Below the pieces are notes generated by a model. It was not told the origin of the DNA. It worked only from the letters and a program-made list of their open reading frames with translations, and did not search any database. Position numbers and translations under genes: made by a program. From contig JAFRDE010000003.1 of the NCBI GenBank assembly GCA_017403985.1, positions 1-35,889 of the forward strand: 35,889 bases of DNA, read 5' to 3'. This DNA comes from Ruminococcus sp. (GTDB taxonomy: Bacteria; Bacillota; Clostridia; Oscillospirales; Acutalibacteraceae). Positions 6,318-35,412 of this stretch are shown here, piece by piece. Within the stretch, counting starts at the first letter, position 1. Every line of letters begins with the position of its first letter.

Positions 6318-6695
6318 ATGGAACAGAAAACTATTTTTGAACAGCTTGGCGGAACATACATCCGTCAGGGAGATTATCTTCTCCCAAATCTGAAAATGCC
6401 GAAACAGCCGGAGTATAACATCGGCGTATGGGGACAGCGCCGAAGGCGTTATCTGAAACAGCACCGCCAAATCATTTACACTAACTTGCTTACCTCTTGT
6501 AAGTTATCCGAGCATTTGGCAGAGGTTGAGAAAGAATGTGCCGAGCGGATGGATAGCCTTGTAAAAGCTGTGGCTAAACAGGAAGGCGTAACCGAAGCGC
6601 TCAAAGCCGCCGATCAAATGGTTTGGGTACGTCGAATGAATAATATCCGCAACCGTGCCGAAGAAATCGTATTGAAAGAAATTGTATATGTATAG
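6318..6695 (+). CDS. tnpV: Transposon-encoded protein TnpV
   Basis: A 125-residue basic protein with the typical TnpV sequence: EQLGGTYIRQGDYLLPNL, then a YNIGVWGQRRRRYLKQHR block and a helical C-terminal half. TnpV is a small accessory protein of Tn4451-type elements with no essential role shown for excision; its molecular function is unknown. The start ATG follows GAAAGGAGCCTGTT, a good ribosome binding site. It ends just before a strong bidirectional terminator. Confidence 0.85.
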   Translation: MEQKTIFEQLGGTYIRQGDYLLPNLKMPKQPEYNIGVWGQRRRRYLKQHRQIIYTNLLTSCKLSEHLAEVEKECAERMDSLVKAVAKQEGVTEALKAADQMVWVRRMNNIRNRAEEIVLKEIVYV

Positions 6696-6697
6696 CA

Positions 6698-6739
6698 AAA
6701 TCCCGCTGTCAGCGTTGATTCGTTAACAGCGGGATTTTT
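6698..6739. terminator. Bidirectional terminator between tnpV and the DUF1016 gene
   Basis: The arms AAATCCCGCTGT (6698-6709) and ACAGCGGGATTT (6726-6737) are perfectly complementary. The stem is followed by T on the + strand and preceded by A on the + strand, so it can terminate both tnpV and the convergent nuclease gene. Confidence 0.85.
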
Positions 6740-6749
6740 AAGTTCGCTA

Positions 6750-7769: not shown

Positions 7770-7782
7770 ATATATCACCCTA

Positions 7783-10122: not shown

Positions 10123-12391
<2,269 letters not shown>

Positions 12392-18100: not shown

Positions 18101-21100
18101 AGGGCTCGTTCGCGTCTTCGCCGTAGGTCCAGCCTTCGATGGAAACGGTCGGAGCGATATCCGCCTGAGCGATCGTGAAGTCAGCGGTCACTTCCGTGCC
18201 GTTGTAGTTATCGGTGTCGGCGATCTCAGCCTTGACGGTGTAGTCGCCCGCCTCTGTGGGAACATCAGCGGTGAACTCGTCGGAATCCTTCACAGCGTAG
18301 GTGATGGTAACTTCGCCGTCGCCGTCGTTGCCGGTGACTTCGGGCTCGTTCGCTTCGTCGCCGTAGGTCCAGCCTTCGATGGTGACAGTCGGAGTGATAT
18401 CGCTCTTAGCGATCGTGAAGTCAGCAGTGCACTCGCCGCCGTTGTAGTTAGCGCTCTCGGCGATCACAGCCTTGACGGTGTACTCGCCCGCGTCAGTGGG
18501 AACTTCCTCGGTAAACTCGTCGGAATCCTTGACAGCGTAGGTGTAGGTCACTTCGCCTTTGCCGGTGTTGCCGGTGACTTCGGGCTCGTTGGCTTCTTCG
18601 CCGTAAGTCCAGCCTTCGATGGTGACAGCCGGGGTGATGTCAGCCTTAGCGATGGTGAAGTCTGCGGAGCAGATCGCCGCGTTGTAGTTGTCGGTCTCAG
18701 CGATCTTAGCGGATACGACATACTCGCCTGCGTCCTCGGGAACATCCTCTGACCAGCAGGCGTTATACTGCTCAACATAGTCTTCAGCATCAGGATCAAG
18801 GGCGTCGAGATCGGCTTTCTTCGCGTAGATGACGGTCTCTTCGCCTTCGCTGTCGTTGCCAGTGATCACGGGCTCGTTCGCGTCTTCGCCGTAGGTCCAG
18901 CCTTCGATGGTGATCACGGGAGTGATCGCCGCCTTCGAGATGGAGAACGGAGCGGTGCAGTATGCTTCAACATAGTTGTCGGTCTCGGCGATCTTAGCGG
19001 TCAGGACATACTCGCCTGCATCCTCGGGAACATCCTCAGTCCAGCAAGCCTTATACTGATCCGCATAGTCGTCAGCCTCGGTATCGAGCGCGTCGAGATC
19101 GGCTTGCTTCGCGTAGGTGTAGGTCACTTCGCCGTTGCTGGTGTTGCCGGTGACCTCGGGCTCGTTGGGTTCGTCGCCGTAGGTCCAGCCTTCGATGGTG
19201 ACCTCGGGCAGGAAGGAGGCTTTGTTGATGGTGAATGTCTTCTCGCCGGATACGGTATAGTTGCCGCCGTCCTTATCGGTGACGGTAACGGTCGCCGTAC
19301 CTGCGTTGATGTTATCGGAATACGAAACCTCGTACTCGTCGGAGAAAATCTCTACCTCGCCGTCCTTTACGGTCACGGTGGGCTTATTCTCATCACCGCT
19401 GTAATCGATCTCATCATAAGACAGGTCGATGGTGGGCTCGTCAACAGTCTTGACGCTTACGGTGAAGTCAACAGCCTCGGTGGTGACCGCGACAGCGGTA
19501 TCGCTCTCGGCGATCTCTGCGAACATCTTATACTCGCCTGCGTCGAGGGTCAGCTCGGTGATGCTGTCGTCCCATACAACTGCGTCAGCAGAACTGCCGT
19601 CAGCGGGATAATACTTATAGGTGACCTCGCCTTCGCCGACGTTGCCCTCGACCGCGGGGGTCGGGAAGCTGTCCGCGTCGCCGTAGGTGTAATCGGTCAT
19701 GGTCACGGTCGGGACCGCGGCGATCTCTACGGTGCAGTAAGGCTCGTCGCCGTACGGCACATCCTTCACGTTTTCGGTCAGCGCCTCTACGCGGACGTAG
19801 ATGCTGTAGGTGCCGATATCCTTGCCCATGGGCACGGTATCCAGCTCGTTCAGGCCGCCTTCAAGGGAGTACCAGAGCTTGGCTTCGTTGCTGATATCGA
19901 CGCCGTCGCCGACGGTCAGCGCAGCGGACTGTATCAGCTCCTGCCAGCTGCCGTCATAGTACAGGGTCTTTGTGACGATCTCGGGCTCGGGCGCGGCTTT
20001 CTCAGCATAGATCACGCTCTCGAACCAGTCGTCGCCGCCGTCCGCGTTCGGGCGGAAGTATACGACATACTTGCCGTCGGCGTCGGGCGAATAGTTGTTG
20101 TTTTCGCCGGTGGGATACCATACGTTTTCATGTCCGGCTTCAACATAGATGACCTTTAACTCGGAATCGGTGGTCAGATCGAGTACCGCAAACATGTACT
20201 CTTCGCCGTCCGCCTTTTCGTTCTGCGTCATCTTGTAGGCGTCGTCTCTCTGCCACTCGTTGAAGTTGCCGACGATGTAATATCCGGTGAACGCTGCGAG
20301 CGTTTCCTCGGCGTCGGTCAGCTTATTCAGGGTATCTTCATCGATCAGCGCCTTCTGATCATCATCGAGCGCGTCATAAGCGTCTCTTGCCGCCTTGACA
20401 ACGTCATAGTCCTCGGGAACGAGCTCGTCCGGGATCGCGTCGATCAGGTCATAGGCTTCGAGAGCAGCCTCGGCGTCGGTGATCTTCTTCGTGGTATCCT
20501 CGTCGAGCAGCGCCTTCGCTTCGTTGGTCAGCTCGTCGTAAGCGTCGATCGCCGCTTCGAAAGCTTCCTTATTCTCTTCCGTTATGGCTTCATCCGGGAG
20601 AGCGTTTATCAGCTCTGCGGCTGCATCGGCGGCATGCTGATCGGTAACCAGAATGCCGTTGTGTCTGAACTCGATCAAATCGACCCAGCCCTCGTACAGG
20701 TCATAGCAGGTATCGTGGAAGCCCACGTAGATAGTCTGACCGGCATAATCGGAAAGATCGATGTCAAAGAAGTCCCAATTACCTCGAGGACCATTAGTTG
20801 TCGGAACGACAGTCTGGATCACGGTCATGGTCGAAGGATCGTCGGAAGTGCCGACGCAGATGTCGAATTGCTCGGGATAAGAGTCGTTTGCGTTTGTCGC
20901 ATAGAAGGTCATATGCGTAACGTACTCGGGGATCGCGATCGCGGGGGTGATCATCCAGTTATCGGCTTGGTACGCGCCGACACGGTCGATAAAGGAATAA
21001 GTGTATATGAACGCGCCGCCCTCATAGGCAAAATCGGTGTAATTATGCTTGGGATGGTTCTTCGACCACATCCATCTTGCGCTGCTGGCGGCATTGACGT

Positions 21101-24086
21101 AGGTCATTTCGTTGACTTCATCCTCAAAATCGAAGGTGAATCTCTTGATCAGACCCTCTTCCTGCTTTGCGACATGGTCGAACGTCGCGGTATAGGTCGC
21201 GTTGGCGGTTGCGGCAACGACCTCGGGCGTCCAGCCTGCGAAGGGGAAGGTATAGTAGTCGTTTTCGTCCTTGGTCGGGTCTTCGTGAGTCGGCGTGTCG
21301 CCGTATGATACGGTGGCGGCGTCGATCACGGAGCCGTCTTCATTCTTCCATGTAATGGTATACTTTGCCTTTTCGGTATAGATGCAGTATTTGAACCAGT
21401 CGTCGCCGCCCTCATAATCGGGACGGAAGTATACGTCATAGTTCGCGTCCTCGGAAACGGAATCGTTCTGATCCACGCCTTCGGGGAACCATGTCCTGAC
21501 GCCGGGAGCGGCGTACAGCACCTTGAACGAGTCGCTGGCTTTCAGCGCGACGTCGTGGATGTAATACTCGCCCTCATTCTCGGTGTTCTCAGAGAGCTTA
21601 TAGGCGGAGTCGATCGCCCATTCCTCATCGGTCATGGTGCCGACGAGGTAGTAGCCGGTCACATACTTCTGTACCGGGGTAAAGACCGCGGTATAGGTCA
21701 CGTCGCCGGTAACGGCAGGCAGCGCGTTTGCCGCGTAGGTGTTCGTGCCGTCCGTCCAGCCGGAGAAGGCGTAGGTATAGTCGTCGTCCGCGTCCTTGGT
21801 CGGGGTATCGCCGTTATAGGTCGGGGTCGTAAAGGAGACGACGCCGGTATCGGTTTCAAGAACATCGTCGCCGTTCTTCCAAGTGACGGTATGGGTGGTG
21901 GTGACGGTGATATCAAAGTCGCTGTTAAACGACATATCATAGGAGGCAGTATGCTCCTTGATTCCTAAGTTGACTCTGGCTTTGCCGAGGTCGTTAACAG
22001 TGATATTGATACCGGAAACAGAGAGGTTGCTTCCGCTGCTGATCGAGACAGAGGTAGCTGAATAGTTAGATTCATACCCCAGCGCCTGCAGAAGCTCGGT
22101 GCCCGTTATCGTAAGCGGAACGGTAACGTCTTGAGCCACGGTCGCTGTCCGGGAGTACCATGTATCATAAACGACGATTTTATAACCCTTTACCTGCTTG
22201 ATGGCAGCCATGAAAAGATCATACATTTCATCATCTTCGGTGATGATCTCGCCGTTCAATCTGAGTTCTTCCGTATCCGGGTCATATCCGGGGTTCATTC
22301 CTGCGAGCTCGGCGGCTAATTTCGCTTTGGCTTTCGCATAGGTTTCTTCGCCGAGCTCGGCGATGAAGGCTTCCCATTCTTCGTCCGTCATATCAGCGCC
22401 GATTTCCAAATGCAAGACCGTATCCATGTCGATGTAATAGTCGCCTGCAGAGAGACCCTCCGTGTCGGTGGGCAGTGCGATAAAGCGAGGATCCAGATTA
22501 TTATACGCTTTCTCAGCGTCGGTGAGCGTCTTCAGGTCGTCTTCGCCGATCAGCGCCTGCTGCTCCGCGGTCAGCGCGTCATAAGCGGCGCGAGCCGCGT
22601 CGATCTTCGCCTTGCAGTCTTCGGTGAATTCAACCTCGCCGATATCGTTGATCAGGGCGGTGACAGCGTCCGCGGCTTCCTGATCCGGGTCGGGAGCGGG
22701 AGCGGTGCTCTTAAGCGTGAACACGATGGACTCAATGCCGTAAATAGCACCTGAGAAGGTTACTTCCGATGCTTCACCTGTCCATGTAACTGTATATAAA
22801 TCATACCATTTTTCATTCCATTCATCATAATAACTGCCGGACTTCGCAACTGTGGCACCGGGGAAATTAAGGGAATCAACATATTCAGAATTCTTGAGTT
22901 CAATCTTGGTGAATACCGATCCTTCGGGCGCCGTAAAGGTGGCGGTGCCTCTTCCATCATAGAAACAATCGCCCACACGGGTATTGCCTTGTGTCGTAGT
23001 AAGGGTAACTCCACCTGATGACATTCCACCACTGGTGGTAAAGCTATCCCATGTGACGGTGCTGATTACAGGCTGAGCCTCGGTCGGAGCCTCGGTGGGA
23101 GCCTCGGTGGGAGCCTCGGTCGGAGCCTCGGTGGGAGCCTCGGTGGGCTCGGGAGCGGTGTAATACACATCGATAGAAGGGACGTCACAACAATTATTAG
23201 CGGTAAAATTCGGATTTGCGCTGAGCCTCACTTCGGAAGCGTTGATATTATCATAGGTAAAATCTTCGCCGGACTGCGTATAGGCAACGCTGTTACCGTT
23301 TGCTTTGACAATAAGAGTATTATCATAATATAATCTGTGAACGACAAGCTTTGTGATCGTCTCGCCTGACAGAGCGGAAATCGATGCATAAGCGTCTGAA
23401 TAATTGCCGTCAAAAACCCAGCCGTTGTAACTATAAGCAGTAATATCATAAGCATTTCCAACAGCTTTAACGGAAAAGTGTTCGCCGTTGAAATCAACCG
23501 GTAAATACTCATCATTACCATGCTGTGTAAGATCAAGCGTTTCCATCTGCTCCGCCACAACCTCGGTGGGCTCGGGAGCGGTGTAATACACATCGATAGA
23601 ACGGACTACACAATAACAATCATCGGTATAATTCGGATTTGCGCTGAGCCTCACTTCGGAAGCGTTGATATTATCATAGGTAAAATCTTCGCCGGACTGC
23701 GTATAGGCAACGCTGTTACCGTTAGCTTTAACAATAAGAGTATTTACATTGTCTGATCTGTGAACGACAATCTTTGTGATCGTCTCGCCTGACAGAGCGG
23801 AAATCGATGCATAAGCGTCGGGATAATCGCCGTCAAAATCCCAGCCGGCATCACCTGTAGTAATATCATAAATATCTCCAACAGCTTTAACGGAAAAGTG
23901 TTCGCCGTTGAAATCAACCGGTAACATATCATCATTACCATGCTGTGTAAGATCAAGCGTTTCCATCTGCTCCGCCACAACCTCGCCGACTTGCGCGCTT
24001 GCAGTTACGGGAACCATGGCGAACACACTGAATACCATGATCAGCGACAGCAGGATGCTGACTGATTTTTTCAATGTTTTTTTCAT
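15162..24086 (-). CDS. Giant secreted multi-repeat protein with C-terminal dockerin
   Basis: A 2974-residue protein started by ATG 24086 behind TAGGAGGAATAACAAACT. Domains in order: signal peptide 1-31 (ending VPVTASA); two near-identical modules (about 33-172 and 176-311); a TEAP linker (312-338); an unassigned beta module (340-455); a helical FIVAR-like segment (462-530); an InlB/Flg_new-like TVTWKNGDD repeat near 730-800; a beta module starting YYLVGTMTDEEW; a choice-of-anchor J domain (about 980-1140); two helical segments; a second YYIVGNFNEWQ module; about 13 MBG-like repeats of 75-100 residues (about 1455-2756) with the hallmark VTIEGWTYG; two InlB-like repeats; and a dockerin with two DxDGDGEVTIIDA calcium loops (about 2906-2974). 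A dockerin attaches a protein to a cohesin scaffold in ruminococcal cellulosome- or amylosome-like complexes. No catalytic domain was seen, so it is probably structural, adhesive or carbohydrate-binding. Confidence 0.85.
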   Translation of the reverse strand: MKKTLKKSVSILLSLIMVFSVFAMVPVTASAQVGEVVAEQMETLDLTQHGNDDMLPVDFNGEHFSVKAVGDIYDITTGDAGWDFDGDYPDAYASISALSGETITKIVVHRSDNVNTLIVKANGNSVAYTQSGEDFTYDNINASEVRLSANPNYTDDCYCVVRSIDVYYTAPEPTEVVAEQMETLDLTQHGNDEYLPVDFNGEHFSVKAVGNAYDITAYSYNGWVFDGNYSDAYASISALSGETITKLVVHRLYYDNTLIVKANGNSVAYTQSGEDFTYDNINASEVRLSANPNFTANNCCDVPSIDVYYTAPEPTEAPTEAPTEAPTEAPTEAPTEAQPVISTVTWDSFTTSGGMSSGGVTLTTTQGNTRVGDCFYDGRGTATFTAPEGSVFTKIELKNSEYVDSLNFPGATVAKSGSYYDEWNEKWYDLYTVTWTGEASEVTFSGAIYGIESIVFTLKSTAPAPDPDQEAADAVTALINDIGEVEFTEDCKAKIDAARAAYDALTAEQQALIGEDDLKTLTDAEKAYNNLDPRFIALPTDTEGLSAGDYYIDMDTVLHLEIGADMTDEEWEAFIAELGEETYAKAKAKLAAELAGMNPGYDPDTEELRLNGEIITEDDEMYDLFMAAIKQVKGYKIVVYDTWYSRTATVAQDVTVPLTITGTELLQALGYESNYSATSVSISSGSNLSVSGINITVNDLGKARVNLGIKEHTASYDMSFNSDFDITVTTTHTVTWKNGDDVLETDTGVVSFTTPTYNGDTPTKDADDDYTYAFSGWTDGTNTYAANALPAVTGDVTYTAVFTPVQKYVTGYYLVGTMTDEEWAIDSAYKLSENTENEGEYYIHDVALKASDSFKVLYAAPGVRTWFPEGVDQNDSVSEDANYDVYFRPDYEGGDDWFKYCIYTEKAKYTITWKNEDGSVIDAATVSYGDTPTHEDPTKDENDYYTFPFAGWTPEVVAATANATYTATFDHVAKQEEGLIKRFTFDFEDEVNEMTYVNAASSARWMWSKNHPKHNYTDFAYEGGAFIYTYSFIDRVGAYQADNWMITPAIAIPEYVTHMTFYATNANDSYPEQFDICVGTSDDPSTMTVIQTVVPTTNGPRGNWDFFDIDLSDYAGQTIYVGFHDTCYDLYEGWVDLIEFRHNGILVTDQHAADAAAELINALPDEAITEENKEAFEAAIDAYDELTNEAKALLDEDTTKKITDAEAALEAYDLIDAIPDELVPEDYDVVKAARDAYDALDDDQKALIDEDTLNKLTDAEETLAAFTGYYIVGNFNEWQRDDAYKMTQNEKADGEEYMFAVLDLTTDSELKVIYVEAGHENVWYPTGENNNYSPDADGKYVVYFRPNADGGDDWFESVIYAEKAAPEPEIVTKTLYYDGSWQELIQSAALTVGDGVDISNEAKLWYSLEGGLNELDTVPMGKDIGTYSIYVRVEALTENVKDVPYGDEPYCTVEIAAVPTVTMTDYTYGDADSFPTPAVEGNVGEGEVTYKYYPADGSSADAVVWDDSITELTLDAGEYKMFAEIAESDTAVAVTTEAVDFTVSVKTVDEPTIDLSYDEIDYSGDENKPTVTVKDGEVEIFSDEYEVSYSDNINAGTATVTVTDKDGGNYTVSGEKTFTINKASFLPEVTIEGWTYGDEPNEPEVTGNTSNGEVTYTYAKQADLDALDTEADDYADQYKACWTEDVPEDAGEYVLTAKIAETDNYVEAYCTAPFSISKAAITPVITIEGWTYGEDANEPVITGNDSEGEETVIYAKKADLDALDPDAEDYVEQYNACWSEDVPEDAGEYVVSAKIAETDNYNAAICSADFTIAKADITPAVTIEGWTYGEEANEPEVTGNTGKGEVTYTYAVKDSDEFTEEVPTDAGEYTVKAVIAESANYNGGECTADFTIAKSDITPTVTIEGWTYGDEANEPEVTGNDGDGEVTITYAVKDSDEFTADVPTEAGDYTVKAEIADTDNYNGTEVTADFTIAQADIAPTVSIEGWTYGEDANEPSVTGNTGEGDVTYTYAKKADLDALDPEADDYDEQYAACWSEDVPEDADEYTVKAAIAATDNYNAAEATADFTIAKADIEPAVTIEGWTYGDDANDPEVTGNTGEGDVTYTYAKKADLDALDPDDDDYDEQYAACWTEDVPVNAGDYTVKAAIAETDNYNGAEATADFTIAKADPVMAEDGDYNVVAQNLVYNGERQNLVTEYVKEDSGLVVRYSFYPEGMNPQIAGNIPREKEVGRYAIYYMVEGNDNYNGVDWVLIPLFAEIEPATFEVAIEGWTYGEYDEEANAPAATANFTNYEEFTYTYAKKADLDALDPDADDYDEQYAACWSEDVPENVGEYTVMASITSDNEYYSSLTATADFAITKADIEPTVTIEGWTFGEEANEPEVTGNSGNGDVTITYAVKDSEEFTGTVPTEAGDYTVKAVIAETDNYNGAEATADFTIAKADFEPTVTIEGWTYGEYDEEANAPEVTDNTSEGDVTYTYAVKGSDEFTETVPTTAGEYTVKATIAETDNYNSEEATADFTIAKADITPVVTVEGWAYGEYDEAVNGPTVSGNTENGDVTYLYKVKDADDETYVNERPENVGDYTVKAVVAETTDYNGAEATADFTIVKADIDPEIILDDWAYSDEPNSPAINEGGNPGDAEVAYTYAFHGSDAYSEIKPELPGNYTVKAVIAETDNYNGATVYKDFVIRKGTFEPTVTLESWNYGEEPNEPELTGNISEGAVKYTYAPEGSDAFSATVPTKPGSYVVKASIASTDLYDAVEVTGTFEIVQVNFTITWKNDDGTVIDTTTVAKGDVPTHADATKDATEQYTYTFVGWTPEVVAATENAEYTAVFESTVNEYTITWKNDDGTVIDTTTVAYGEVPTHADATKDATDQYTYTFAGWTPEVVAATADAEYTATFETVEKILLGDADGDGEVTIIDATMIQRVLAGIPGAVVNEVAADVDGDGEVTIIDATLIQRYLASIPVKFPIDEYI
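15815..19725 (-). repeat. About 13 tandem MBG-like repeats inside the giant gene
   Basis: Twelve units share VTIEGWTYG or a close form, followed by an E-V-T-G-N segment, V-T-Y-T-Y-A, then A-G-E-Y-T-V-K-A and D-N-Y-N; a degenerate first unit begins VTMTDYTYG. Units come in two lengths: a longer form with an inserted KKADLDALDP...YAACW segment (units 1, 2, 5, 6 and 7 of the twelve) and a shorter form with VKDSDEF. An unrelated YNGE-type module interrupts the array near 17330-17580. Confidence 0.8.
23073..23156 (-). repeat. Thr-Glu-Ala-Pro linker repeat
   Basis: Repeats of the 12-base unit encode TEAP about six to seven times in the giant protein. This is a typical extended linker between secreted modules; the DNA-level periodicity could allow slippage in copy number. 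Confidence 0.85.
23160..23965 (-). repeat. Tandem duplication of the N-terminal module
   Basis: About 400 bases at 23167-23540 and 23582-23965 are nearly identical. Both encode a module beginning VVAEQMETLDLTQHGND and ending in SIDVYYTAPEPTE, with scattered differences such as DAGWDF versus YNGWVF. The similarity suggests a recent duplication. Confidence 0.8.
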
Positions 24087-26708: not shown

Positions 26709-27302
26709 TCAGATATACTTACATAACTCCGTCAAAGGCCTTCTCGAGGTTTTTCCGGGCAAGCCGGATTTGTATCCAAGGCAGATTGCAGATAACAAAA
26801 CATAGCCGCTGTTCAGCTCATCGACAAAATCCTGATAGGCATACAGCACATCACCGCACCACAAACCGCCTAGCCCCAGTTCCTCAATCTTCAACAGCAT
26901 ATTCTCAACCGCCGCACCGATCGCCATCAAATCAAGCGCTTCGCGATCCGTTGCCGCCATCGACCATCCCGTATCACTGGGGATTTGCGTTCGGAAGGAT
27001 GTGTTATCATATAGGACATAAATAACAACTGGAGCGGTTTTCATGATATCAAACGTCTCAAGCGTCATATGCAGATCATTTCTTGAAGGGCTGTCTTCAA
27101 GCATCCGAATGATCTTATTCCGCGCGCTTTCTATCATGTAATCCCTTTTATCGTTTCTTTGAGAAACGATAAACCTCCACGGCTGTCTGTTCTTACCGGA
27201 AGGAGCCCTTATGCCGGCTTCCAAAATACGCTGAATCAATTCATCCGGTATATCCCGTGTATCAAAACACCTCGTACTCCTTCGAGAATCGATGACCCCC
27301 AT
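26709..27302 (-). CDS. Nitroreductase family FMN-dependent oxidoreductase
   Basis: The protein is 197 residues when started at the ATG at 27302, six bases after AGGAG; the TTG at 27308 would sit directly on that site. It has the nitroreductase signatures SRRSTRCFDTRDIPDEL near the N-terminus (FMN phosphate contact), AGIRAPSGKNRQPWRF, and GAAVENMLLKIEELGLGGLW in the second half. The family reduces or oxidises substrates with FMN and NAD(P)H, and some members act as dehydrogenases in natural-product pathways. Here it is the last gene of the radical-SAM operon, two bases after the pentapeptide gene, so a tailoring redox step is a reasonable inference. It may also be an unrelated detoxifying enzyme. 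Confidence 0.8.
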   Translation of the reverse strand: MGVIDSRRSTRCFDTRDIPDELIQRILEAGIRAPSGKNRQPWRFIVSQRNDKRDYMIESARNKIIRMLEDSPSRNDLHMTLETFDIMKTAPVVIYVLYDNTSFRTQIPSDTGWSMAATDREALDLMAIGAAVENMLLKIEELGLGGLWCGDVLYAYQDFVDELNSGYVLLSAICLGYKSGLPGKTSRRPLTELCKYI

Positions 27303-27304
27303 AT

Positions 27305-29692
27305 TCAACTCCTTTTGCCGTCAAAAATACAGTTCTGACACCTAATTTTTGCCTTTTTTAAGTCCTGACTCGTGACGCCGCTTCCTCTGAAATCGCATCG
27401 GATCAGCGTTATGTTTTCGAAAAAGGCAGGAGTCAGTCCCCTTGAATAGCTGAAATCCACGTCAATCAACTCTGATTGAGAAAACATCGGTGCGTCTCCC
27501 AAAATAAAAATCGACCTTGACATGTCCGTTCCTTCCATTGAACAAGCAGAAAACTGACATCCCATAAATACAGAATCCATCAAAACAGTTCCGGAAAATA
27601 ACGCGTTCTCCAAATGAGTCTTATTAAAAATCGAAGAAGAAAGCAATGCTTTGTCAAATATGGTTCCGCTGCCGTTGGCGTTGGTAAAGATACAGTCTTT
27701 TCCGACTGCAAAGCTGAAATTGATTCGCGACAGATCCGCAGCGCTGAAATCTGTTTTCGACAAAGTCGCATAACTAAAATCGACATTACAGTCATCATCC
27801 AATGAGCCGGCGATACTGCCGCTGTCAAGCTGATGACATTTTAATGAATCGCATACCTTGCATTTGTCCTGAATCACTCCGACAAAAGAAGCGTTATGGC
27901 AATACGAATTTGAAAAATTGCACCGCAGGATATTGGAATCCGAGAAATTAGCATTTTCCAGTAATACGCCTCTGAAATTGTTTCGATACAAAATGGATCC
28001 GGGAAAAACGATCCCATTCATATCAGAACCGTGGAAGTTACAGCTTACCACCACGCTGTTCGTCATCGTTACCCCTTCAAAGCCCGCTTTTTCAGCTGAG
28101 CATTGAAACCAAACGGAATTGAAAATCAATGCCTTTTGGAAATTAGCTTTATCAAAATTGATATTAGCTAATCGAGAAGAATAGAGCTTTGCGTAGTCAA
28201 ATGAGGTGTTCTCCATGGAAAACAAGTACTCTTTTTCCGGTTCGTCGGCGGAGTCAAAAGGGAAACTGTCGTTCCAGAGCGGACCTTCGGCAAGAAGGCA
28301 CGCACGGCTGACATCTGCATTGGCAAATGTCGCCCCGGAAAAGTAAGTCGCTTCCTTTCCGTTATACGGATCCCAAACCCCTTTGGAATCATCCTTAAAG
28401 GTGACCGCGATCTCACCATCGCAGTTTCCGGAATCAATAAAGTACAATCCCGGCATTTTTGCATTACTGAAATCCGCTTCTTTACAGTAAGCGCCCTTCA
28501 GCCGGGAATAGGTCAAGTCGCATTTGGAAAAATCCGTATTTTGAAAATCGCCGCCTGACAGACTCATGCGAGACAGATCCATTCCATTGAAGGATTCGCC
28601 CCACATCATAAAAATCAATAATCTTTTTTTGATAGATCTTCTTAAACAAACAGCTTGCCTGATCTGATCCTTTTCCTTTTGACTGTTCTTAGAGACCAAA
28701 ACGGTATCGCGGTAACAGATCAAATCGTCGTAAACCTCCGTAAAACCGATATCGCTCGGTAACGCCGGTTCCGTTTTTCTGTCACAGGATTCTTCTTTTT
28801 CGAGCCACTCCTTATCATGCTTTGCCATTTCGCAGCAGCAATCCCAGCGAGACTGTCTTTTTTCCGTATTCTTGATGGAGTCCCACGTGTGACTGCAGGT
28901 GTTGTTCTCAGAAAGATATCCGTCGTTAATCTTGCGCAAAAAAAGATTACTGATCATCCTATCGTTTCTTTCCTCGCTGTTGAACGACTTGCCGACGTCT
29001 TCATGATTCTTGATGATCCGATTGATCAGCTTTTCCAGATTATTGACCTTTTCCAGTCCGATATCGGTTTGATCTTCTTCGTTTTCCGGCTGAGCATACC
29101 TTGATGCGATCTCTTGCCGCATTTCTATTGCGATCTTGTCATATTTTGCTTCCCGCTGGAAAATATGATAATTAAATGCCAGCATAACAAAAAACGCAGT
29201 CAGCGAAATAATACATACCGCAAAAGTCAGTATACAAAGAACGGTAAAACTATCATTATAATATCGAATCTGAGTTTCGGAAAAAACCTCCAACAGCACA
29301 TCCGACCCCAGATACTGTCCAAAACTCAAGCAAAAAACACATGTAACCAAAGCCATCCCGCTAAATATAAGCGAAGAGATAAAGTATATCCACATATTTT
29401 CAAAATACTTTTTCAGTACTTTGCTCAAATATGGTTTTTTGCTTTCTTCCGCACGCAACTCGCTGCATACAAAAGCATAGGACGCCGCACTCAAACCGAA
29501 CATGGTAATCACGACCGCTGCCAAGGTACTGCATATCGTTGACATGTATTGATCTAAACGAAATGCCAGATATTCATTCGCAACAATCGCATATATTGCA
29601 TATCCTGCAATCAACAAACCATCGATCAAAATCGGTGTAATAATCAATTTTCTGATTGCTTTGCGTTTTCTAATTTTATCTTTCGCTGCCAT
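27305..29692 (-). CDS. Four-TM pentapeptide-repeat membrane protein
   Basis: A 795-residue protein with a basic N-terminus (MAAKDKIRKRKAIRK), about four transmembrane helices (about 16-35, 50-75, 95-125, 148-172), a charged linker region (about 175-365), and a long pentapeptide-repeat domain from about residue 370 to the end (for example MDLSRMSLSGGDFQNTDFSK, and CDFRGSG near the end). Pentapeptide repeats fold as a right-handed beta helix; some members mimic DNA and protect gyrase, but most have unknown roles. The tail seems cytoplasmic. It starts four bases after the radical-SAM stop, with GGAG inside the preceding gene's end. A role in self-protection, scaffolding or membrane anchoring of the enzymes is inference. 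Confidence 0.8.
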   Translation of the reverse strand: MAAKDKIRKRKAIRKLIITPILIDGLLIAGYAIYAIVANEYLAFRLDQYMSTICSTLAAVVITMFGLSAASYAFVCSELRAEESKKPYLSKVLKKYFENMWIYFISSLIFSGMALVTCVFCLSFGQYLGSDVLLEVFSETQIRYYNDSFTVLCILTFAVCIISLTAFFVMLAFNYHIFQREAKYDKIAIEMRQEIASRYAQPENEEDQTDIGLEKVNNLEKLINRIIKNHEDVGKSFNSEERNDRMISNLFLRKINDGYLSENNTCSHTWDSIKNTEKRQSRWDCCCEMAKHDKEWLEKEESCDRKTEPALPSDIGFTEVYDDLICYRDTVLVSKNSQKEKDQIRQAVCLRRSIKKRLLIFMMWGESFNGMDLSRMSLSGGDFQNTDFSKCDLTYSRLKGAYCKEADFSNAKMPGLYFIDSGNCDGEIAVTFKDDSKGVWDPYNGKEATYFSGATFANADVSRACLLAEGPLWNDSFPFDSADEPEKEYLFSMENTSFDYAKLYSSRLANINFDKANFQKALIFNSVWFQCSAEKAGFEGVTMTNSVVVSCNFHGSDMNGIVFPGSILYRNNFRGVLLENANFSDSNILRCNFSNSYCHNASFVGVIQDKCKVCDSLKCHQLDSGSIAGSLDDDCNVDFSYATLSKTDFSAADLSRINFSFAVGKDCIFTNANGSGTIFDKALLSSSIFNKTHLENALFSGTVLMDSVFMGCQFSACSMEGTDMSRSIFILGDAPMFSQSELIDVDFSYSRGLTPAFFENITLIRCDFRGSGVTSQDLKKAKIRCQNCIFDGKRS

Positions 29693-29696
29693 GCTG

Positions 29697-30794
29697 CTAT
29701 TTCTCCGATAATAATTCCAACGACAACACGATCTGTTCGATTTCTTCCTCGCTCTTACGGACAGGATGGTTCTTTAATTCTTCAATCAGTTTCTCTCTGC
29801 AATCGCAGCCCATCTCTTTTGCTAATAACGCTTCTGTCAGGCGCTTTCTCTCAGCTCCGCGTTTCGCTCTCAGAAAATCACCGTAAAAAGAAAACAGTTC
29901 ATCATGACACGACTCGCAATCCTCAGGAGGAAGCAAGGGGTATTCATTATTCTCATAAAAGTTCTGACGGTCACCGTACCAAGAAAGCGAAATGCGCTCC
30001 AGCACATCCTCCGTCAGCTCGCTGAACAAAAGCGGCAGCATCCACTGGGATACAGACTGATACTGTCCCGCAAGATACAACTTGTGCAGCAAAGTAAACG
30101 GCTTGATGTTAGCGGGAAACAGCACCAATGAGTCGACCTTTCTCTCAACCGCCCACTGTATCGATTTACATGCTGTCTCCATCTGATCGGACGCGTTAAG
30201 AAAAGGAGCGCCGACAAAAACATTCAAACAAACCGACATTTCCATCGTTTCAACCAAATCAATTGCTTTTTCCAACACTTCCAATTCCAATACCTTGTTC
30301 AAACAACGATGCAGCACATAAGTATCGCATGTCTCGTAACCCATCTCTATGATTACGTCTGTATCCGGTGAAATGCTTTCTTTGATCCATTGCAGTTTTG
30401 CTTCACTGACGGTTTCGCAATGCGTTTCAAAAATAACAGTAGGAATCTGATATTTGCGGATAAAATCAAGAATAACATCCAGACACTCCGCCGAGATCTC
30501 GCTTTCATCAAAGATACTGCCGTATGTTCCGAACAACATCTTATCTGTATACGGTACACAGGGAGCAAGCTCCTTTTCCAGCGCCAAAGCTAATTCTTCC
30601 GCACTCACATTGCAGCCTATTCCGTAATCACACATAATACACGCGCCGGCATTGCGACTGTATCTGCACCCACGGCTTTGGATACAACAGTGAATAAAGC
30701 CTTTCTCCGGCTGCCATAAAGTGAGGATCTTGTCTTTGGGTGTTTGCGGTCTCTTTTTATGCATTTCCAGATTCACTTTGCTTAAAATGTTCAT
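29697..30794 (-). CDS. Radical SAM enzyme, Elp3/RaSEA-like
   Basis: A 365-residue protein with an N-terminal cluster motif RG-C43-x8-C52-IM-C55-DYG, a Cx8Cx2C spacing that is not the classical Cx3Cx2C but resembles the Elp3/archaeosine-synthase (RaSEA) group. LFGTYGSIFDESE, VIFETHCE and IIEMGYET follow as the barrel strands expected of that group. Further Cys (C36, C37, C61, and CESC near the C-terminus) might bind a second cluster. Such enzymes cleave S-adenosylmethionine to a 5'-deoxyadenosyl radical. The start is supported by AGAGG eight bases before the ATG. It lies 21 bases after the ATP-grasp/radical-SAM gene and 4 bases before the pentapeptide gene. A plain tRNA-modification role cannot be excluded, but the operon suggests otherwise. 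Confidence 0.75.
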   Translation of the reverse strand: MNILSKVNLEMHKKRPQTPKDKILTLWQPEKGFIHCCIQSRGCRYSRNAGACIMCDYGIGCNVSAEELALALEKELAPCVPYTDKMLFGTYGSIFDESEISAECLDVILDFIRKYQIPTVIFETHCETVSEAKLQWIKESISPDTDVIIEMGYETCDTYVLHRCLNKVLELEVLEKAIDLVETMEMSVCLNVFVGAPFLNASDQMETACKSIQWAVERKVDSLVLFPANIKPFTLLHKLYLAGQYQSVSQWMLPLLFSELTEDVLERISLSWYGDRQNFYENNEYPLLPPEDCESCHDELFSFYGDFLRAKRGAERKRLTEALLAKEMGCDCREKLIEELKNHPVRKSEEEIEQIVLSLELLSEK

Positions 30795-30815
30795 CTTAAA
30801 AACCTCTGTTAATCT

Positions 30816-33110
30816 TTATCCGCAATAATCATCAGGCATACTCAGTGTATTATTCTGACACGGTACACATGAAGGACCGGGCTTCAAACCATACTCAGCA
30901 CATATTTCATGTGCTTTTAAATAAATTGATAACAGCCTCTCGTTATCGTACGGGATGACATAGTGTGCGGGCGTACCGGGGATCGGACGAAAAACGGATA
31001 GGATAGGAGCCGCTCCGCATCTGCAAACAGATCTGATTCCTTCCAGCAGCGACGCATCCGGCTCCAAGCCGACCACAAAAGCCGACCTCACCTTTCCGGT
31101 TTTTCCCCAAACCTTTACTGCCGCCTCCAGCGCTTTAAGATAGTATTCTCGAGAAATTGCTCCTTTTCCGGGCATCCATTTTTTGGCCAGACAAGAATCC
31201 CAAATCTCGAGGTTCATCGCAATTTCCGTAACTCCTGCATTCGCCCACGTTTCAAAAACTTCAAAGTTTCGCGGCGGAACGCACATAACATATATCGGCG
31301 CAGGTTGATGAGCGGTAATGTACTGCGCTATCCTCAGTACGGATGCCGGCTCCTTTTCCGGACTGTCCGATCTTCCGCCTATCAGGTAATGACGGTATTG
31401 ATGAGCAGAATCCATATAAGTTTGCACAGCGCTTTCTACTTGTCCGAGATCAAAGGAATAGTCGTAATCCTGCACCTCACAAAATCGGCATCCCATACCG
31501 TTGTGCTTGAAATAGCAGTTGGAAGAATGCTGTATACGAACCCTGTCGGTAGCCAGCAAACATATATCGCTCATTTTTGTGTCATGAGAGATCCGGATAT
31601 CCTGAAGCTCGTCTGCAGGATAAAACCCGACATCCGTCACCTTATCCCCATAATATCTGAGAACAAGATGATCACCTTCCGGTTCAAGACTGAACGGTGA
31701 CAGTCTTGCGAACTTGACCCTCACTGCGCTGTTGATGACGATGCCGTGTACATCCAGATCGACTGCATTGAATACGCCGCTGCGTATTCCTCCGTTTTGG
31801 CGGAGATACTTTTCAGCTTCCGACGAAATAAACAGGCCTTGATTGATCAAAGCGATTTTCAAATAAAGCGGATCATGTTCGATCGCAATTTTTCGATACC
31901 ATTTCGGATCCGCTTCCATGATATTCGGATGAATCAATAACGTATTTTCAGCTGAAATACTGACAATGTTCGTCTTAAAAACGACTCTGTCCAAACTGGC
32001 AAGGGGATAGATCGACCAGCTCAAATCCAAACCGTCGTTGTTTACGGAAACAACATTGTTATCCCTCAACAGGTCATAAGGATACCCCACCGGTATTTTG
32101 CCGTTTTCATCTGAAATATATGTATAGCAGCTGTACGGAACCGATAATGAGCTGATGTCCACACCGGAACGGCTTTCTTCAAACGCTCTTAAGTTCAATT
32201 CCTGTAAACACGGAAGTCCGTGATCGTGAAGCGCTAAATTGATCAGCGGCGACGAACCCTGAAACCGGTTATTGATTTCTACAAAAAACACCTGCCCGTC
32301 AACGATAAGACCGTCAAGACCTGCGATCCCCCGAAAGCCCTCGCTTTGCAGCTTTCGACAAAGACAAAAGGTCTTCTCTCTGAATCGCTCCATGATTCCG
32401 CTGTCGATCTGATCGGCAGCGATAAAATCCGCTCCACGGTACAGTATTCTTCTATTGCGGATCGTCGTAATTTGCACGGAAACAGGCGTCAGAAGAATCT
32501 CTTCGTCATAAATGATGACATGTATATTGATGGAAATACTGTTTTCCATATAACGAGAAATCAGGTATTGGTTTCCGTCCTCCAAAGAAAGCACATGGCT
32601 TTCTATTTCGCTTTTTTCAAGCAAAACGGTATCTTCTCCGCCGCTGGATACTTCCTTCTGAAACACATACTTTTCAGCAAGTCCGACTCGCTCTACGATT
32701 GTATCCAAGCTGCATTCCCTGCCGTACATTACCGTATACGGCAAGATCTCGACCGTGTCCGAAGCCCATTCTTTGAATCTTATTTTGCTTTTAAGCCGAT
32801 CCATCAGCGATTTGCGATTTAAGCACAAGGTTCGGCTGATAATTCTCTCTCCGCAGTCAAAAGCAGCATTCGGATCGTAAGACATAAAACGTATTTCGGG
32901 ATCCTCTTCAATCAGCTTCTCCGCTTCATTAATAATATAACTATTCTGTTCATCTGTCGTGATATTATGATTAATTCGTGTTTGATTCGCCGAGCAATAG
33001 GAACGGTTTTTTTCTGTTCCTCTTCCGTAAAGAGTAATACTTCCGTCAAATAAACCGTTTGTAAATTGAAAGTCCTGCTCTCTCGGTCCGATCGCTATGA
33101 TTTTTCTCAT
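30816..33110 (-). CDS. ATP-grasp / radical SAM fusion protein
   Basis: The protein is 764 residues when started at ATG 33110 (MRKIIAIGPREQDF), preceded by a weak GGGGCG; a TTG 12 bases upstream has no room for a site. Residues about 1-310 form an ATP-grasp ligase: KYVFQKEVSSGGEDTVLLEK (nucleotide-binding lysine loop) and GLDGLIVDGQVFFVEINNRF with E278, N280 and R282 as metal ligands. Residues about 320-525 are unassigned. The C-terminal part is a radical-SAM domain with C532-x8-C541-x2-C544 (NCYFKHNGMGCRFCEVQ), and a final C748-x2-C751-x11-C763 set that could bind an extra cluster. An ATP-grasp joins a carboxylate to an amine or thiol, so one polypeptide could ligate and then modify by radical chemistry. 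It is the first gene of the operon. Confidence 0.75.
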   Translation of the reverse strand: MRKIIAIGPREQDFQFTNGLFDGSITLYGRGTEKNRSYCSANQTRINHNITTDEQNSYIINEAEKLIEEDPEIRFMSYDPNAAFDCGERIISRTLCLNRKSLMDRLKSKIRFKEWASDTVEILPYTVMYGRECSLDTIVERVGLAEKYVFQKEVSSGGEDTVLLEKSEIESHVLSLEDGNQYLISRYMENSISINIHVIIYDEEILLTPVSVQITTIRNRRILYRGADFIAADQIDSGIMERFREKTFCLCRKLQSEGFRGIAGLDGLIVDGQVFFVEINNRFQGSSPLINLALHDHGLPCLQELNLRAFEESRSGVDISSLSVPYSCYTYISDENGKIPVGYPYDLLRDNNVVSVNNDGLDLSWSIYPLASLDRVVFKTNIVSISAENTLLIHPNIMEADPKWYRKIAIEHDPLYLKIALINQGLFISSEAEKYLRQNGGIRSGVFNAVDLDVHGIVINSAVRVKFARLSPFSLEPEGDHLVLRYYGDKVTDVGFYPADELQDIRISHDTKMSDICLLATDRVRIQHSSNCYFKHNGMGCRFCEVQDYDYSFDLGQVESAVQTYMDSAHQYRHYLIGGRSDSPEKEPASVLRIAQYITAHQPAPIYVMCVPPRNFEVFETWANAGVTEIAMNLEIWDSCLAKKWMPGKGAISREYYLKALEAAVKVWGKTGKVRSAFVVGLEPDASLLEGIRSVCRCGAAPILSVFRPIPGTPAHYVIPYDNERLLSIYLKAHEICAEYGLKPGPSCVPCQNNTLSMPDDYCG

Positions 33111-33145: not shown

Positions 33146-33174
33146 ATTATATCAAAACCAAGATGAATTATCAA
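33146..33174 (-). promoter_or_regulatory. Promoter of the radical-SAM operon
   Basis: On the minus strand TTGATA (33169-33174) and TATAAT (33146-33151) are separated by exactly 17 bases. The expected start is near 33139, leaving a leader of about 28 bases. No operator palindrome is evident. Confidence 0.8.
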
Positions 33175-33739: not shown

Positions 33740-33768
33740 TTATAGAATTATATCTTGAGGTGGAATAC

Positions 33769-35412
33769 ATGAATAAAATAGGAATCGCTGAGAGTATATC
33801 AGTTGAGTTTAAGAGTGACAAGCAATGTATTTCTGACAACGGAATCATAGATGCTATAGTTGCATTTGCCAACACAGACGGGGGAGAGCTATATATCGGA
33901 GTTGAAGATAACGGAGAGATTACCGGTTTGCACAAAAAGCATGAAAACGCATCAAAACTGGCGGCATTCATCGCGAATAAAACTGTTCCCCCTGTTCCGG
34001 TGCGCGTTGAAAAGATAACTCTGGGAGGAACATACATTAGAATAACGGTACCTAAAAGCTTTTCCGTAGTAGCTTCATCTAACGGAAAAATACAGCGAAG
34101 ACGATTAAAAACAGACGGAACGCCTGAAAATATTCCAATGTATCCTTATGAGATATCCTCTCGATTATCGTCGCTTGGGCTATTGGATTATTCTGCGCAG
34201 GCTGTACCGGATGCTGATTATTCTGATTTAGATCCTTTGGAAAGAGAAAGACTTAGGAGTATTATCAAAAACTACAGAGGCGAATATGAATTATTGGATT
34301 TGGATGATTTAGATTTGGACAAAGCGCTGAATCTTGTAATTAAACAAGAAGGGAAGTATGTACCGACATTTTGCGGTTTATTATTGATTGGAAAAACAGA
34401 AGCGATAAAAAAGCATATGCCTACATCTGAATCGTCTATTCAGATTATGAGCGGCAGCGATATAAAAGTTAACCAAAACTTTTATGGATCTATTATATCG
34501 TCTTTTGAAAAAATCAATGAATACTTTATGGCTTGGAATAAAAGCGAAGAAATGGAAGTTGGATTATTCAGGTATACGATCCCGGACTATGATCCACGTG
34601 CATTTCGAGAAGCTTTGGTAAATGCTTTTTGTCATCGAGATTATTCTATTTTGGGCAGAGTTTTGATACAAATTAATAATGACGGTATGACTATCAGCAA
34701 TCCAGGTGGTTTTATTGAAGGTATCACAGCAGATAATCTGTTGGATGCGATTCCGCAGGGAAGGAATCCTTTATTAGCCACTGCGCTGAAAAGAATCGGC
34801 TTAGCAGAAAGGACCGGCAGAGGAATAGACAGAATATATGAAGGCTCGTTATTATACGGAAGATTATTACCGGATTATTCTCGATCAAGTGCGAAAAATG
34901 TAATCTTATTTATCCCGAAGGGACCGACTGATAAAGAGTTCATTAAGATGATCTCAAGTGAACAGGAAAAAACCGGTAATACACTGCCAATATATTCCTT
35001 GTTGATTCTTAATCACTTAAAAGGAGTCCCGAAATCACAAATCAAGGAAATAGCAACTTCCCTTAAATTATCAGAGAGTTCCGTGCGGGTAACCATTGAA
35101 TCTTTAGTGGCAGCCGGAATTGTTGAAGCGGTTGGACAAAGCCGCGGAAGATACTATATGCTCAGTTCTAAGTATTATAGAAAAGCAAATGATACCATTA
35201 GATATGTTCGTCATAAGGATATTGATCCGATAAGATACGAAGAACTGGTTTTAGAACTGGCCAGAACCAAAGGGGACATTCGACGAGCTGATGTAATGGA
35301 ACTGTTACATATTAATGGTGCTCAGGCATATCGCATTTTAAAAAAGTTGGAAGATTCCGGTAAAATACTTCAAAAAGGAAAGGGTGCGGGAGTTAAGTAC
35401 TATCTGACATAA
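33769..35412 (+). CDS. AlbA_2 (Schlafen-type) domain protein with RecG-like C-terminal ATPase fold and winged helices
   Basis: The protein is 547 residues when started at ATG 33769 behind GAGGTGGAATAC; a GTG nine bases upstream is part of that site. Residues about 5-115 form the AlbA_2 domain (ISVEFKSDK, AIVAFANTDGGELYIGVEDN). Residues about 250-390 contain REALVNAFCHRDY, ISNPGGF and RTGRGIDRI, the HATPase_c_4 module often annotated as RecG-like, without helicase motifs. The C-terminal part has two winged helices (SESSVRVTIESLVAAGIVEA and HINGAQAYRILKKLEDSGKI). Such proteins are putative transcriptional regulators, and some relatives are linked to phage defence. The inverted-repeat promoter suggests autoregulation. 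Operon partners are absent. Confidence 0.85.
   Translation: MNKIGIAESISVEFKSDKQCISDNGIIDAIVAFANTDGGELYIGVEDNGEITGLHKKHENASKLAAFIANKTVPPVPVRVEKITLGGTYIRITVPKSFSVVASSNGKIQRRRLKTDGTPENIPMYPYEISSRLSSLGLLDYSAQAVPDADYSDLDPLERERLRSIIKNYRGEYELLDLDDLDLDKALNLVIKQEGKYVPTFCGLLLIGKTEAIKKHMPTSESSIQIMSGSDIKVNQNFYGSIISSFEKINEYFMAWNKSEEMEVGLFRYTIPDYDPRAFREALVNAFCHRDYSILGRVLIQINNDGMTISNPGGFIEGITADNLLDAIPQGRNPLLATALKRIGLAERTGRGIDRIYEGSLLYGRLLPDYSRSSAKNVILFIPKGPTDKEFIKMISSEQEKTGNTLPIYSLLILNHLKGVPKSQIKEIATSLKLSESSVRVTIESLVAAGIVEAVGQSRGRYYMLSSKYYRKANDTIRYVRHKDIDPIRYEELVLELARTKGDIRRADVMELLHINGAQAYRILKKLEDSGKILQKGKGAGVKYYLT

Follow-up and report, generated by a model that had tools for sequence, protein, structure and literature searches.

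The operon and its four products

The window (the whole stretch of 35,889 nucleotides analysed here) contains a minus-strand operon of four intact reading frames, running from 33110 to 26709, with the following features:

33146..33174, minus strand: promoter-like site, TTGATA-17-TATAAT with an extended -10 (TG before the -10), 11/12 matches
30816..33110, minus strand: gene 1, 764 aa, ATP-grasp half (residues about 1-313), linker and variant radical SAM half (about 414-755)
31479..31517, minus strand: C-x8-C-x2-C motif of the gene 1 radical SAM domain (C532, C541, C544)
29697..30794, minus strand: gene 2, 365 aa, RaSEA/queuine-lyase-type radical SAM protein
27305..29692, minus strand: gene 3, 795 aa, pentapeptide-repeat protein (PF00805) with four predicted N-terminal membrane helices
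29186..29659, minus strand: predicted membrane part of gene 3, residues 12-169 (hydropathy segments 12-30, 52-70, 104-122 and 151-169)
27338..28582, minus strand: pentapeptide-repeat part of gene 3, residues about 371-785 (PF00805 and hydropathy)
26709..27302, minus strand: gene 4, 197 aa, nitroreductase-family flavin enzyme (PF00881, 107.4 bits)

The intergenic gaps, from gene 1 to gene 4, are 21, 4 and 2 bases, and the promoter-like site (33174-33146), the top-scoring sigma-70-like site of the region, directly precedes the first ATG (33110). Since promoter-like sites overall did not exceed shuffled sequences (16 found versus 15.7 expected), only the strength and placement of this site count. 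An earlier sequence-only reading had given the same gene coordinates, spacing and near-consensus promoter, all borne out on the minus strand, and had taken the four genes as a single unit, which is backed by the spacing, the promoter and the recurrence of the same order elsewhere. All the families that it listed were recovered, with the correction that a single fused protein holds both the ATP-grasp and the first of the radical SAM domains. Its proposal that this may be a biosynthetic or modification cassette is supported by the family assignments and the conserved catalytic motifs. It had named close matches of each gene to known housekeeping enzymes as a result that would speak against a single new system; no operon gene exceeds the cut-off of a known equivalog.

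Gene 1 passes the cut-offs of ATP-grasp_3 (33.8 bits, cut-off 23.2) and of the variant radical SAM family NF045502 (166 bits versus 125), and lies slightly below that of Pfam Radical_SAM (26.4 bits, cut-off 29.5). Its AlphaFold model has a mean pLDDT of 87.5. K109, Q151, G157-G158, D266, E278 and N280 of the ATP-grasp half are invariant in all 12 aligned rows, as are C532/C541/C544 and C748/C751 of the radical SAM half. The best matches of the gene-1 profile among solved structures are peptide ligases (PGM1 at 3.5e-5, 8ynd at 2.4e-4), over stretches of 40 to 57 residues only. A Foldseek search with the whole model is headed by pyruvate and biotin carboxylases; because pyruvate carboxylases also combine an ATP-grasp with a barrel domain, this fold search says little on the subclass.

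No Pfam radical SAM model matches gene 2, which scores 90.0 bits against RaSEA (TIGR01210), below the cut-off of 212.15; its profile (A5) matches the queuine lyase 6p78 at 3e-11. C43/C52/C55 and C164 are invariant in seven of seven rows, and C293/C296/C330/C332 are kept in six. The row lacking these last four cysteines, from locus L030 (114.2 bits against TIGR01210), is also the one whose RaSEA-type domain is fused to a nitroreductase. From its kinship with RaSEA and queuine lyase, gene 2 probably attacks a carbon adjoining nitrogen.

The pentapeptide repeats of gene 3 reach 106.8 bits (Pfam), and the nearest solved sequence to gene 4 is 3gfa (1.9e-30). The sequence-only reading, which treated the operon as one system, would have these families keep together; this holds for the gene-2 family, found in 5 of the 12 genomes behind related loci and each time within the cassette (two of the five with a further copy), and less strictly for the nitroreductases, which also have relatives outside the cassette (e.g., 197 bits in genome G1206 and 156 bits in G1228).

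Related loci, pentapeptide partners and distribution

The four-gene order recurs in two Lachnospiraceae bins, with genes 1, 2 and 4 at 34-55% identity: intact in locus L028 and, interrupted by a contig boundary, in L027 together with L089, one bin's cassette split over two contigs whose linkage we infer. Judged by this recurrence of the identical order, the four-gene set is beyond chance. Three different fusions elsewhere also tie the cassette families together at the level of their domains: nitroreductase–ATP-grasp–radical SAM in L029, ATP-grasp–radical SAM–RaSEA-type–nitroreductase in L030 (a single 1552-aa frame) and membrane-pentapeptide–nitroreductase in L040. In L037, the four enzyme domains are four consecutive genes. 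Among 17 judgeable loci, the gene-1-type enzyme has gene 2 as a neighbour in only 8 and the nitroreductase in only 7; therefore, the common core does not comprise the full chemistry.

Of all its partners, gene 1 is accompanied most constantly by the pentapeptide protein, ahead of gene 2 and the nitroreductase. A pentapeptide protein adjoins the gene-1-type enzyme, or lies one gene beyond, in 11 of 13 judgeable loci, and a comparable repeat run was found in none of 235 ORFs of other regions. By these adjacency counts, the near-constant pair is the gene-1 enzyme with the pentapeptide protein, gene 2 and the nitroreductase being additions in a subset. No pentapeptide gene adjoins the enzyme within the stretches seen of L030 and L036, showing that the partner is not strictly required. 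At the threshold applied, the short PF00805 model fails to pick up even gene 3, so the genome-wide absence of pentapeptide proteins cannot be claimed.

The partners are of two types. The membrane type occurs in the window, L027, L028 and L040, with membrane segments predicted in all four. The other type (L029, L032, L033, L035, L039 and L065) is in all six loci encoded convergently to the fused enzyme, as a direct tail-to-tail neighbour in all except L033. Of the five partners of this type that were scanned, L032, L035 and L039 have predicted membrane segments, and L029 and L033 have none. A comparison by eye revealed no evident common motif of the two types outside the repeats. The C-terminal part of the other type gave a low-confidence model (mean pLDDT 59.8), which retrieved no match in a structure search at E up to 0.001.

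The system was not found in three genomes of the same genus, and is, by the genomes compared, rare and patchily spread, named genomes having been scanned with two short peptide patterns. The tree of these sequences indicates transfer between phyla. Absconditabacteria read TGA as glycine; the two genes of L029, a bin named as Absconditabacteria, contain no in-frame TGA, so its taxon label may be wrong and its phylum is not relied on here. Carriage by phages or plasmids was considered and dropped. The single match at 1e-5 in the phage collection, MT835476, is an unverified faecal scaffold in which a variant radical SAM gene is all that matches, the genes around it being of bacterial type, and a scan of IMG/VR with two short patterns found none. 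No plasmid record out of 41 reaches 80% coverage of gene 1; the 20 plasmid matches listed are confined to the radical SAM half, and 18 of them are annotated as MSMEG_0568.

Comparison with known systems

By membership tests on its sequences, the cassette fails to fall within the archaeosine, graspetide, MSMEG_0568 or Hailong systems, and no description of it was found in the literature searched. Gene 2 shares its family, and probably its radical chemistry at a nitrogen-bound carbon, with RaSEA (TIGR01210) and the queuine lyase QueL (PDB 6p78), but differs in its score and in sitting in an operon with a ligase and a nitroreductase. The C-terminal half of gene 1 shares the variant radical SAM domain NF045502 with the MSMEG_0568 radical SAM protein (TIGR04043) of the nitrilase Nit1C clusters; in contrast, this half is fused to an ATP-grasp, the operon is without a nitrilase gene and gene 1 does not reach the family cut-off (81.5 bits versus 303.7).

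In pyrrolysine biosynthesis, PylB, PylC and PylD, a radical SAM enzyme, an ATP-grasp ligase and an oxidoreductase, act in series on amino acids, a combination resembling that of the cassette; PylC is not named among the 24 solved-structure matches of the gene-1 profile. Hailong combines a synthetase (HalB) with a pentapeptide-bearing membrane protein (HalA), and the cassette likewise pairs an enzyme with such a protein. Nevertheless, the enzyme is unrelated, the HalB nucleotidyltransferase is not among the four operon genes (Pfam and NCBIfam, operon genes only), gene 3 is far under the HalA cut-off and defence evidence is absent.

Peptide clusters with ATP-grasp, radical SAM and nitroreductase genes are known (PMC8939145). 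Among the closest systems are ATP-grasp peptide ligases such as PGM1 of pheganomycin, and the branch-6 ATP-grasp clusters of that graspetide survey, where radical SAM enzymes and members of the nitroreductase superfamily likewise go with an ATP-grasp. They differ from the cassette, in which no precursor peptide was seen (window and L028, by eye), the radical SAM enzymes are of other classes and the partner is a pentapeptide-repeat protein.

Proposed function and alternatives

Our preferred reading, held at a probability of about 0.45, is that of a mobile accessory enzyme cassette that would make a group derived from an amino acid or a peptide, or attach it, the pentapeptide protein serving as the target or as a scaffold for docking. 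The sequences themselves show which genes belong to the set, that it is conserved, fused in places, paired with its partner and patchily spread, and that the catalytic motifs are intact; the chemical steps, their order and this role of gene 3 are what we infer. The ATP-grasp half of gene 1 would activate a carboxylate as an acyl phosphate and join it to an amine; its radical SAM half and the radical enzyme encoded by gene 2 would rework the ligation product, the latter attacking the carbon beside nitrogen; and the flavin enzyme of gene 4 would oxidize or reduce the result. Gene 3 would hold the enzymes at the membrane, the work being done on or beside it. The recurring four-gene order, the fusions, the pentapeptide pairing, the peptide-ligase profile matches and the invariant catalytic residues make this the best explanation, against which stand L030 and L036, the shortness of the peptide-ligase match, the carboxylase-led fold search, the partial co-occurrence of gene 2 and the nitroreductase, and the nitroreductases found elsewhere.

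The pentapeptide protein could instead be the substrate itself, receiving a group that the enzymes would attach to it or cross-link on it. We regard this as unlikely, if worth keeping in view: the six convergent arrangements, five of them directly tail-to-tail, favour it, as does the failure to see by eye a conserved small ORF for a graspetide or other RiPP precursor in or beside the operon (window and L028 only), whereas two partner types without an evident shared motif, and the two loci without an adjoining partner, argue against it. Somewhat less probable is conflict signalling by a Hailong logic with unrelated enzymes, in which gene 1 and its helpers would make a small signal opening or triggering a membrane pentapeptide effector. 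The small core, its patchy spread, the apparent transfer between phyla and the membrane segments predicted in both partner types are consistent with it, as are the SIR2, AAA–SIR2–pentapeptide and NB-ARC–TPR proteins near L037 and a match to the solved pentapeptide protein HalA (9nyi, 1.2e-4), within the repeats only. However, gene 3 and the L040 partner (23.9 and 47.8 bits) do not reach the HalA NCBIfam cut-off of 250, and PADLOC (2023) matched 0 families to each of the four operon proteins at E up to 1. Around the loci, PADLOC matched 110 families among 95 neighbour proteins (95 of 108 ORFs, the 13 omitted being mostly antisense-looking, one a second RaSEA-type gene) versus 100 among 116 control proteins (116 of 123, mostly from the same genomes, with 3 of 14 control regions too short for any protein). 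Per protein, the neighbours come out slightly above the controls, but the counts are pooled and one protein can match a dozen families (a single helix-turn-helix protein matched 12), so no enrichment is claimed. A TIR domain suspected by eye at the N-terminus of L034 was not confirmed by Pfam or PADLOC.

The surroundings of two loci bring to mind a small-molecule natural product cluster, with gene 3 as a self-protection or export-linked protein: around L037, a QueC-like enzyme and a carbamoyltransferase are also encoded, together with what looks by eye like a B12-type radical SAM protein, and the Nocardia locus L038 has QueC-like and asparaginase-like genes nearby, to which inspection by eye adds aldehyde dehydrogenase and amidase genes. 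The peptide clusters mentioned above point the same way. The operon in the window, however, contains no transporter, and known protective pentapeptide proteins are soluble, unlike gene 3 with its predicted membrane helices, making this reading improbable. Salvage of queuosine or archaeosine, with gene 2 as a lyase on a 7-deazaguanine, is highly improbable. The kinship of gene 2 would suit it, as would a TGT match in 8 of the 9 genomes that carry the cassette or its core, but gene 2 is far below the RaSEA cut-off, genome G193 has the gene-2 family without a TGT match, and QueC has no match in the window's genome and, at 1e-6, only one among the nine, the QueC-like gene of the L037 cluster. To our knowledge, neither an ATP-grasp nor a nitroreductase has a role in the queuosine/archaeosine pathway.

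The gene set is small and self-contained. Besides a ligase and a flavin enzyme it has two radical enzymes, both from classes that are sparsely characterised; three different fusions tie the set together, and a repeat protein is paired with it across phyla. The partner is a single candidate scaffold or target, making the substrate question directly testable. As many pentapeptide-repeat proteins have no known role, a defined enzyme partner would give a handle on one class of them. We also advance, as a rather doubtful extension, a two-part system transferred between bacterial phyla, in which the fused ATP-grasp–radical SAM synthetase would make a non-nucleotide signal or protein tag controlling a dedicated, often membrane-bound pentapeptide-repeat effector, the second radical and flavin enzymes elaborating the tag in one branch. 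If true, bacterial conflict or regulation would here run on a new chemical currency.

Operon layout and protein families

All four genes are on the minus strand, one behind the other, with intergenic gaps of 21, 4 and 2 bases, confirming the spacing described in the sequence-only reading:

33110-30816, minus strand: gene 1, ATP-grasp–radical SAM fusion ("the enzyme"), open frame of 764 aa
30794-29697, minus strand: gene 2, radical SAM protein of the RaSEA/queuine-lyase type, open frame of 365 aa
29692-27305, minus strand: gene 3, pentapeptide-repeat protein with predicted membrane helices, open frame of 795 aa
27302-26709, minus strand: gene 4, nitroreductase, open frame of 197 aa

The near-consensus promoter also claimed there proved to be the top-scoring promoter-like site of the region (TTGATA-17-TATAAT, TG before the -10, directly 5' of gene 1), the overall number of such sites being that expected from shuffling. 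A similar site (TTGACA-17-TATACT, at 7892) lies about 80 bases 5' of gene 1 in the Lachnospiraceae locus L028, which carries the four genes on a single contig. Upstream of the operon and divergent to it, the gene at 33760-35412 encodes a Schlafen AlbA_2, HATPase_c_4 and winged-helix protein, a possible regulator.

Gene 1 is a fusion of two halves, an ATP-grasp (PF02655 at 33.8 bits, with a cut-off of 23.2) and a variant radical SAM domain (NF045502 at 166 bits, with a cut-off of 125), the latter related to MSMEG_0568 at a score far under that family's cut-off (TIGR04043, 81.5 versus 303.7 bits). Invariant in a 12-row alignment are, in the ATP-grasp half, the lysine, the glycine pair, D266, E278 and N280 and, in the radical SAM half, C532/C541/C544 and the C-terminal CxxCQNNT. 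Its predicted structure has a mean pLDDT of 87.5, and the solved sequences best matching its profile are PGM1 (3.5e-5) and a second peptide ligase (2.4e-4), with only about 40 to 57 residues aligned. Gene 2 is akin in sequence to RaSEA and queuine lyase, its profile best matching queuine lyase 6p78 (3e-11) among solved sequences, with scores under the cut-offs for RaSEA (TIGR01210, 90 bits, cut-off 212) and MnmL/YtqA (35 bits, cut-off 180). Gene 3 carries pentapeptide repeats, and gene 4 is a nitroreductase scoring far under the cut-offs of FbiB- and BluB-like models. None of the four proteins matched PADLOC, an anti-phage model set.

Recurrence of the cassette and its pentapeptide partner

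The operon is real and conserved, as its order recurs and its families are joined in varied fusions. The fused enzyme occurs in 13 distinct loci (the window, L027 to L036, L039 and L065); its halves are two adjacent genes in L037, L038, L023 and L066, and only its last codons are on the contig of L040. Searching other genomes for the same order, as the sequence-only reading had proposed, recovered the complete four genes in L028 and in a second Lachnospiraceae bin, L027 with contig L089. We infer continuity between these two contigs, gene 3 being interrupted such that its first half meets a stop close to the end of one contig, and the other contig opens with its repeat half. Identities to the window's proteins are 42-50% for gene 1, 38-55% for gene 2, 22-41% for gene 3 and 34-46% for gene 4. 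The strongest evidence that these families would act together is their differing arrangements: nitroreductase, ATP-grasp and radical SAM in a single 966-aa frame (L029, named Absconditabacteria); ATP-grasp, radical SAM, RaSEA-type and nitroreductase in a single 1552-aa frame (L030, an alphaproteobacterial bin); a RaSEA-type gene followed by a membrane-pentapeptide–nitroreductase fusion (L040); and consecutive nitroreductase, RaSEA-type, radical SAM and ATP-grasp genes (L037, an Anaerolineae contig). In L036, a carboxynorspermidine-decarboxylase-like gene (3616-4749; 342 bits, cut-off 409) lies directly 3' of the fused enzyme.

For the pentapeptide (PENTAPEPTIDE) partner, 13 loci could be judged (the fused loci and L040, setting aside L031, where the contig ends), and in 11 of them it adjoins the enzyme or lies one gene beyond. 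No pentapeptide gene lies by the enzyme within the stretches seen of L030 and L036, and none was recognised in those read of the split loci L023, L038 and L066. N-terminal membrane helices are predicted for the partners of the window, L027, L028 and L040; that of L034 is on the enzyme's strand and lacks them. A second type of partner is convergent to the enzyme (L029, L032, L033, L035, L039 and L065), the gene ends being 4 to 10 bases apart or overlapping by 17 to 20, except in L033, where one gene intervenes. This gene (10389-12218) joins a weak alpha/beta-hydrolase match to an EgtD-like methyltransferase (PF10017). By our own measure, runs of at least 8 repeats occur in 10/11 partner proteins, the exception being the repeat-less L027 half, and in 0/130 ORFs of control regions and 0/105 of other loci, a comparison that shows the rarity of the feature and is no independent test, because the partners were initially found through their repeats.

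Gene 2 adjoins the enzyme in 8 of the 17 judgeable loci (L023, L036 and the window counted) and the nitroreductase in 7 of the 17, so that, from gene neighbourhoods, the shared core appears to be the enzyme plus the pentapeptide protein, with gene 2 and the nitroreductase as a putative elaboration. Exceptions to this two-subtype split are L029, with the nitroreductase and without gene 2, and L036 and L023, with gene 2 and no nitroreductase adjoining. Profile searches of the whole genomes behind 12 loci found gene 2 in five (L027, L028, L030, L037 and L040), each time in the cassette and twice with an additional copy; its absence from the other seven (L029, L032, L033, L034, L035, L038 and L039) is provisional because many are draft or metagenome bins. 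Relatives of the nitroreductase are also found outside the cassette (e.g., in G1206 at 197 bits and in G1228 at 156 bits).

Distribution and apparent transfer between phyla

Within the window's family, 3/250 genomes match gene 1 at 1e-20, including the window's own, the only one at full length. At the order level, 8/345 match at 1e-12, adding two full-length proteins (G435 and G519, whose contigs are, judging by their lengths, L031 and L036 over again and not extra loci), and at the class level 12/391 match the gene-1 profile at 1e-30, adding one full-length protein (G1206) and, in G1129, the two halves as an adjacent split pair. The same-genus genomes G074, G185 and G555 gave no gene-1 match (1e-20 / 1e-12), and gene 2 was matched at 1e-15 in 1/299 genomes of the phylum, the window's own. 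Two short peptide patterns run against 84,980 named species, a search of limited recall, yielded 14 loci (L027 to L040). Among class-level relatives, G1137, G1155 and G1159 carry two variant radical SAM domain copies about 7 to 19 kb apart. In L024, L025 and L026, the radical SAM half of gene 1 has relatives that stand alone; those of L024 and L026 lie downstream of a gene that by eye is acetyltransferase-like, pairs that resemble MSMEG_0567/0568. L041 (MT835476) is catalogued as a bacteriophage; by eye, its genes (transporters, a kinase, acetyltransferases) give it the look of a bacterial contig.

The tree was built from 20 radical SAM domains and has some long-branched rows and weak deepest forks. 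In it, the window and L027 are sisters (99/98) within a five-member group also containing L028, G435 and L030 (88/94). L030 branches with G435 (100/100), which belongs to the window's order, and L033 (Pseudomonadota) with L039, labelled Nitrospirota (100/99); these pairings indicate that the enzyme has moved between phyla. A binning error could be envisaged for L030, which shares the sample label Lab288P3 with L031; its flanks (by eye, trigger factor, DsbB and flagellar hook genes) argue against this. In L028, a 57-base direct repeat (7148-7204 and 14118-14174, 93% identical) brackets the four genes, and its first 27 bases have four copies in that genome. By eye, the repeat adjoins an IS21-like gene pair.

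Genomic context and relation to described systems

The neighbours of L037 include a SIR2 protein, an NB-ARC–TPR protein and a 1625-aa AAA–SIR2–pentapeptide protein, surroundings suggestive of a conflict context, along with a carbamoyltransferase, a QueC-like enzyme and what by eye is a radical SAM protein of the B12 type. Over about 30 kb of this contig (L070, L037 and L091) lie two RaSEA-type genes, two nitroreductases, the QueC-like enzyme, the carbamoyltransferase, and SIR2 and NB-ARC proteins. We do not claim a defence system, because pooled PADLOC families are not clearly in excess around the loci (110 for 95 proteins, versus 100 for 116 controls). In the window, PADLOC marks candidate defence genes at 1404-7796 (a PDC-M62A/B ATPase and HNH-like pair, PDC-S01 and PDC-S02). 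Genes that by eye resemble those of a serine recombinase (at 10322-12391) and of a relaxase (at 13164-14858) follow them, and the whole region, some 12 kb away from the operon, has a mobile look. The 2974-aa protein at 15162-24086 has many repeated domains and, by eye, a C-terminal dockerin. The resemblance of gene 2 to RaSEA and queuine lyase led us to check TGT and QueC: TGT was matched in 8/9 genomes (exception G193) and QueC in 1/9, as the QueC-like gene of the L037 cluster itself. Therefore, a queuosine or archaeosine role is unlikely, at least as a common function.

In line with the sequence-only reading, which knew of no described pathway with this set, the cassette is apparently undescribed: none of the open-licence papers searched combines ATP-grasp, radical SAM, pentapeptide repeat and nitroreductase, and the one paper with the first three is on an unrelated subject. 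In the portions consulted, a paper on the QueC family (PMC13329287) mentions neither ATP-grasp nor nitroreductase, PMC10723273 deals with queuosine salvage, and papers on conflict and defence systems (PMC7159879, PMC8195603, PMC10853773) mention pentapeptide repeats and not ATP-grasp, radical SAM enzymes being also described in the first. The closest kind described in these excerpts comes from a graspetide survey (PMC8939145), with loci in which nitroreductase and SPASM radical SAM genes accompany the ATP-grasp. We rate the cassette, with its putative chemistry and putative role for the pentapeptide protein, as belonging with the modification clusters that combine ATP-grasp, radical SAM and flavin enzymes, and as having an unusual, near-constant pentapeptide partner.
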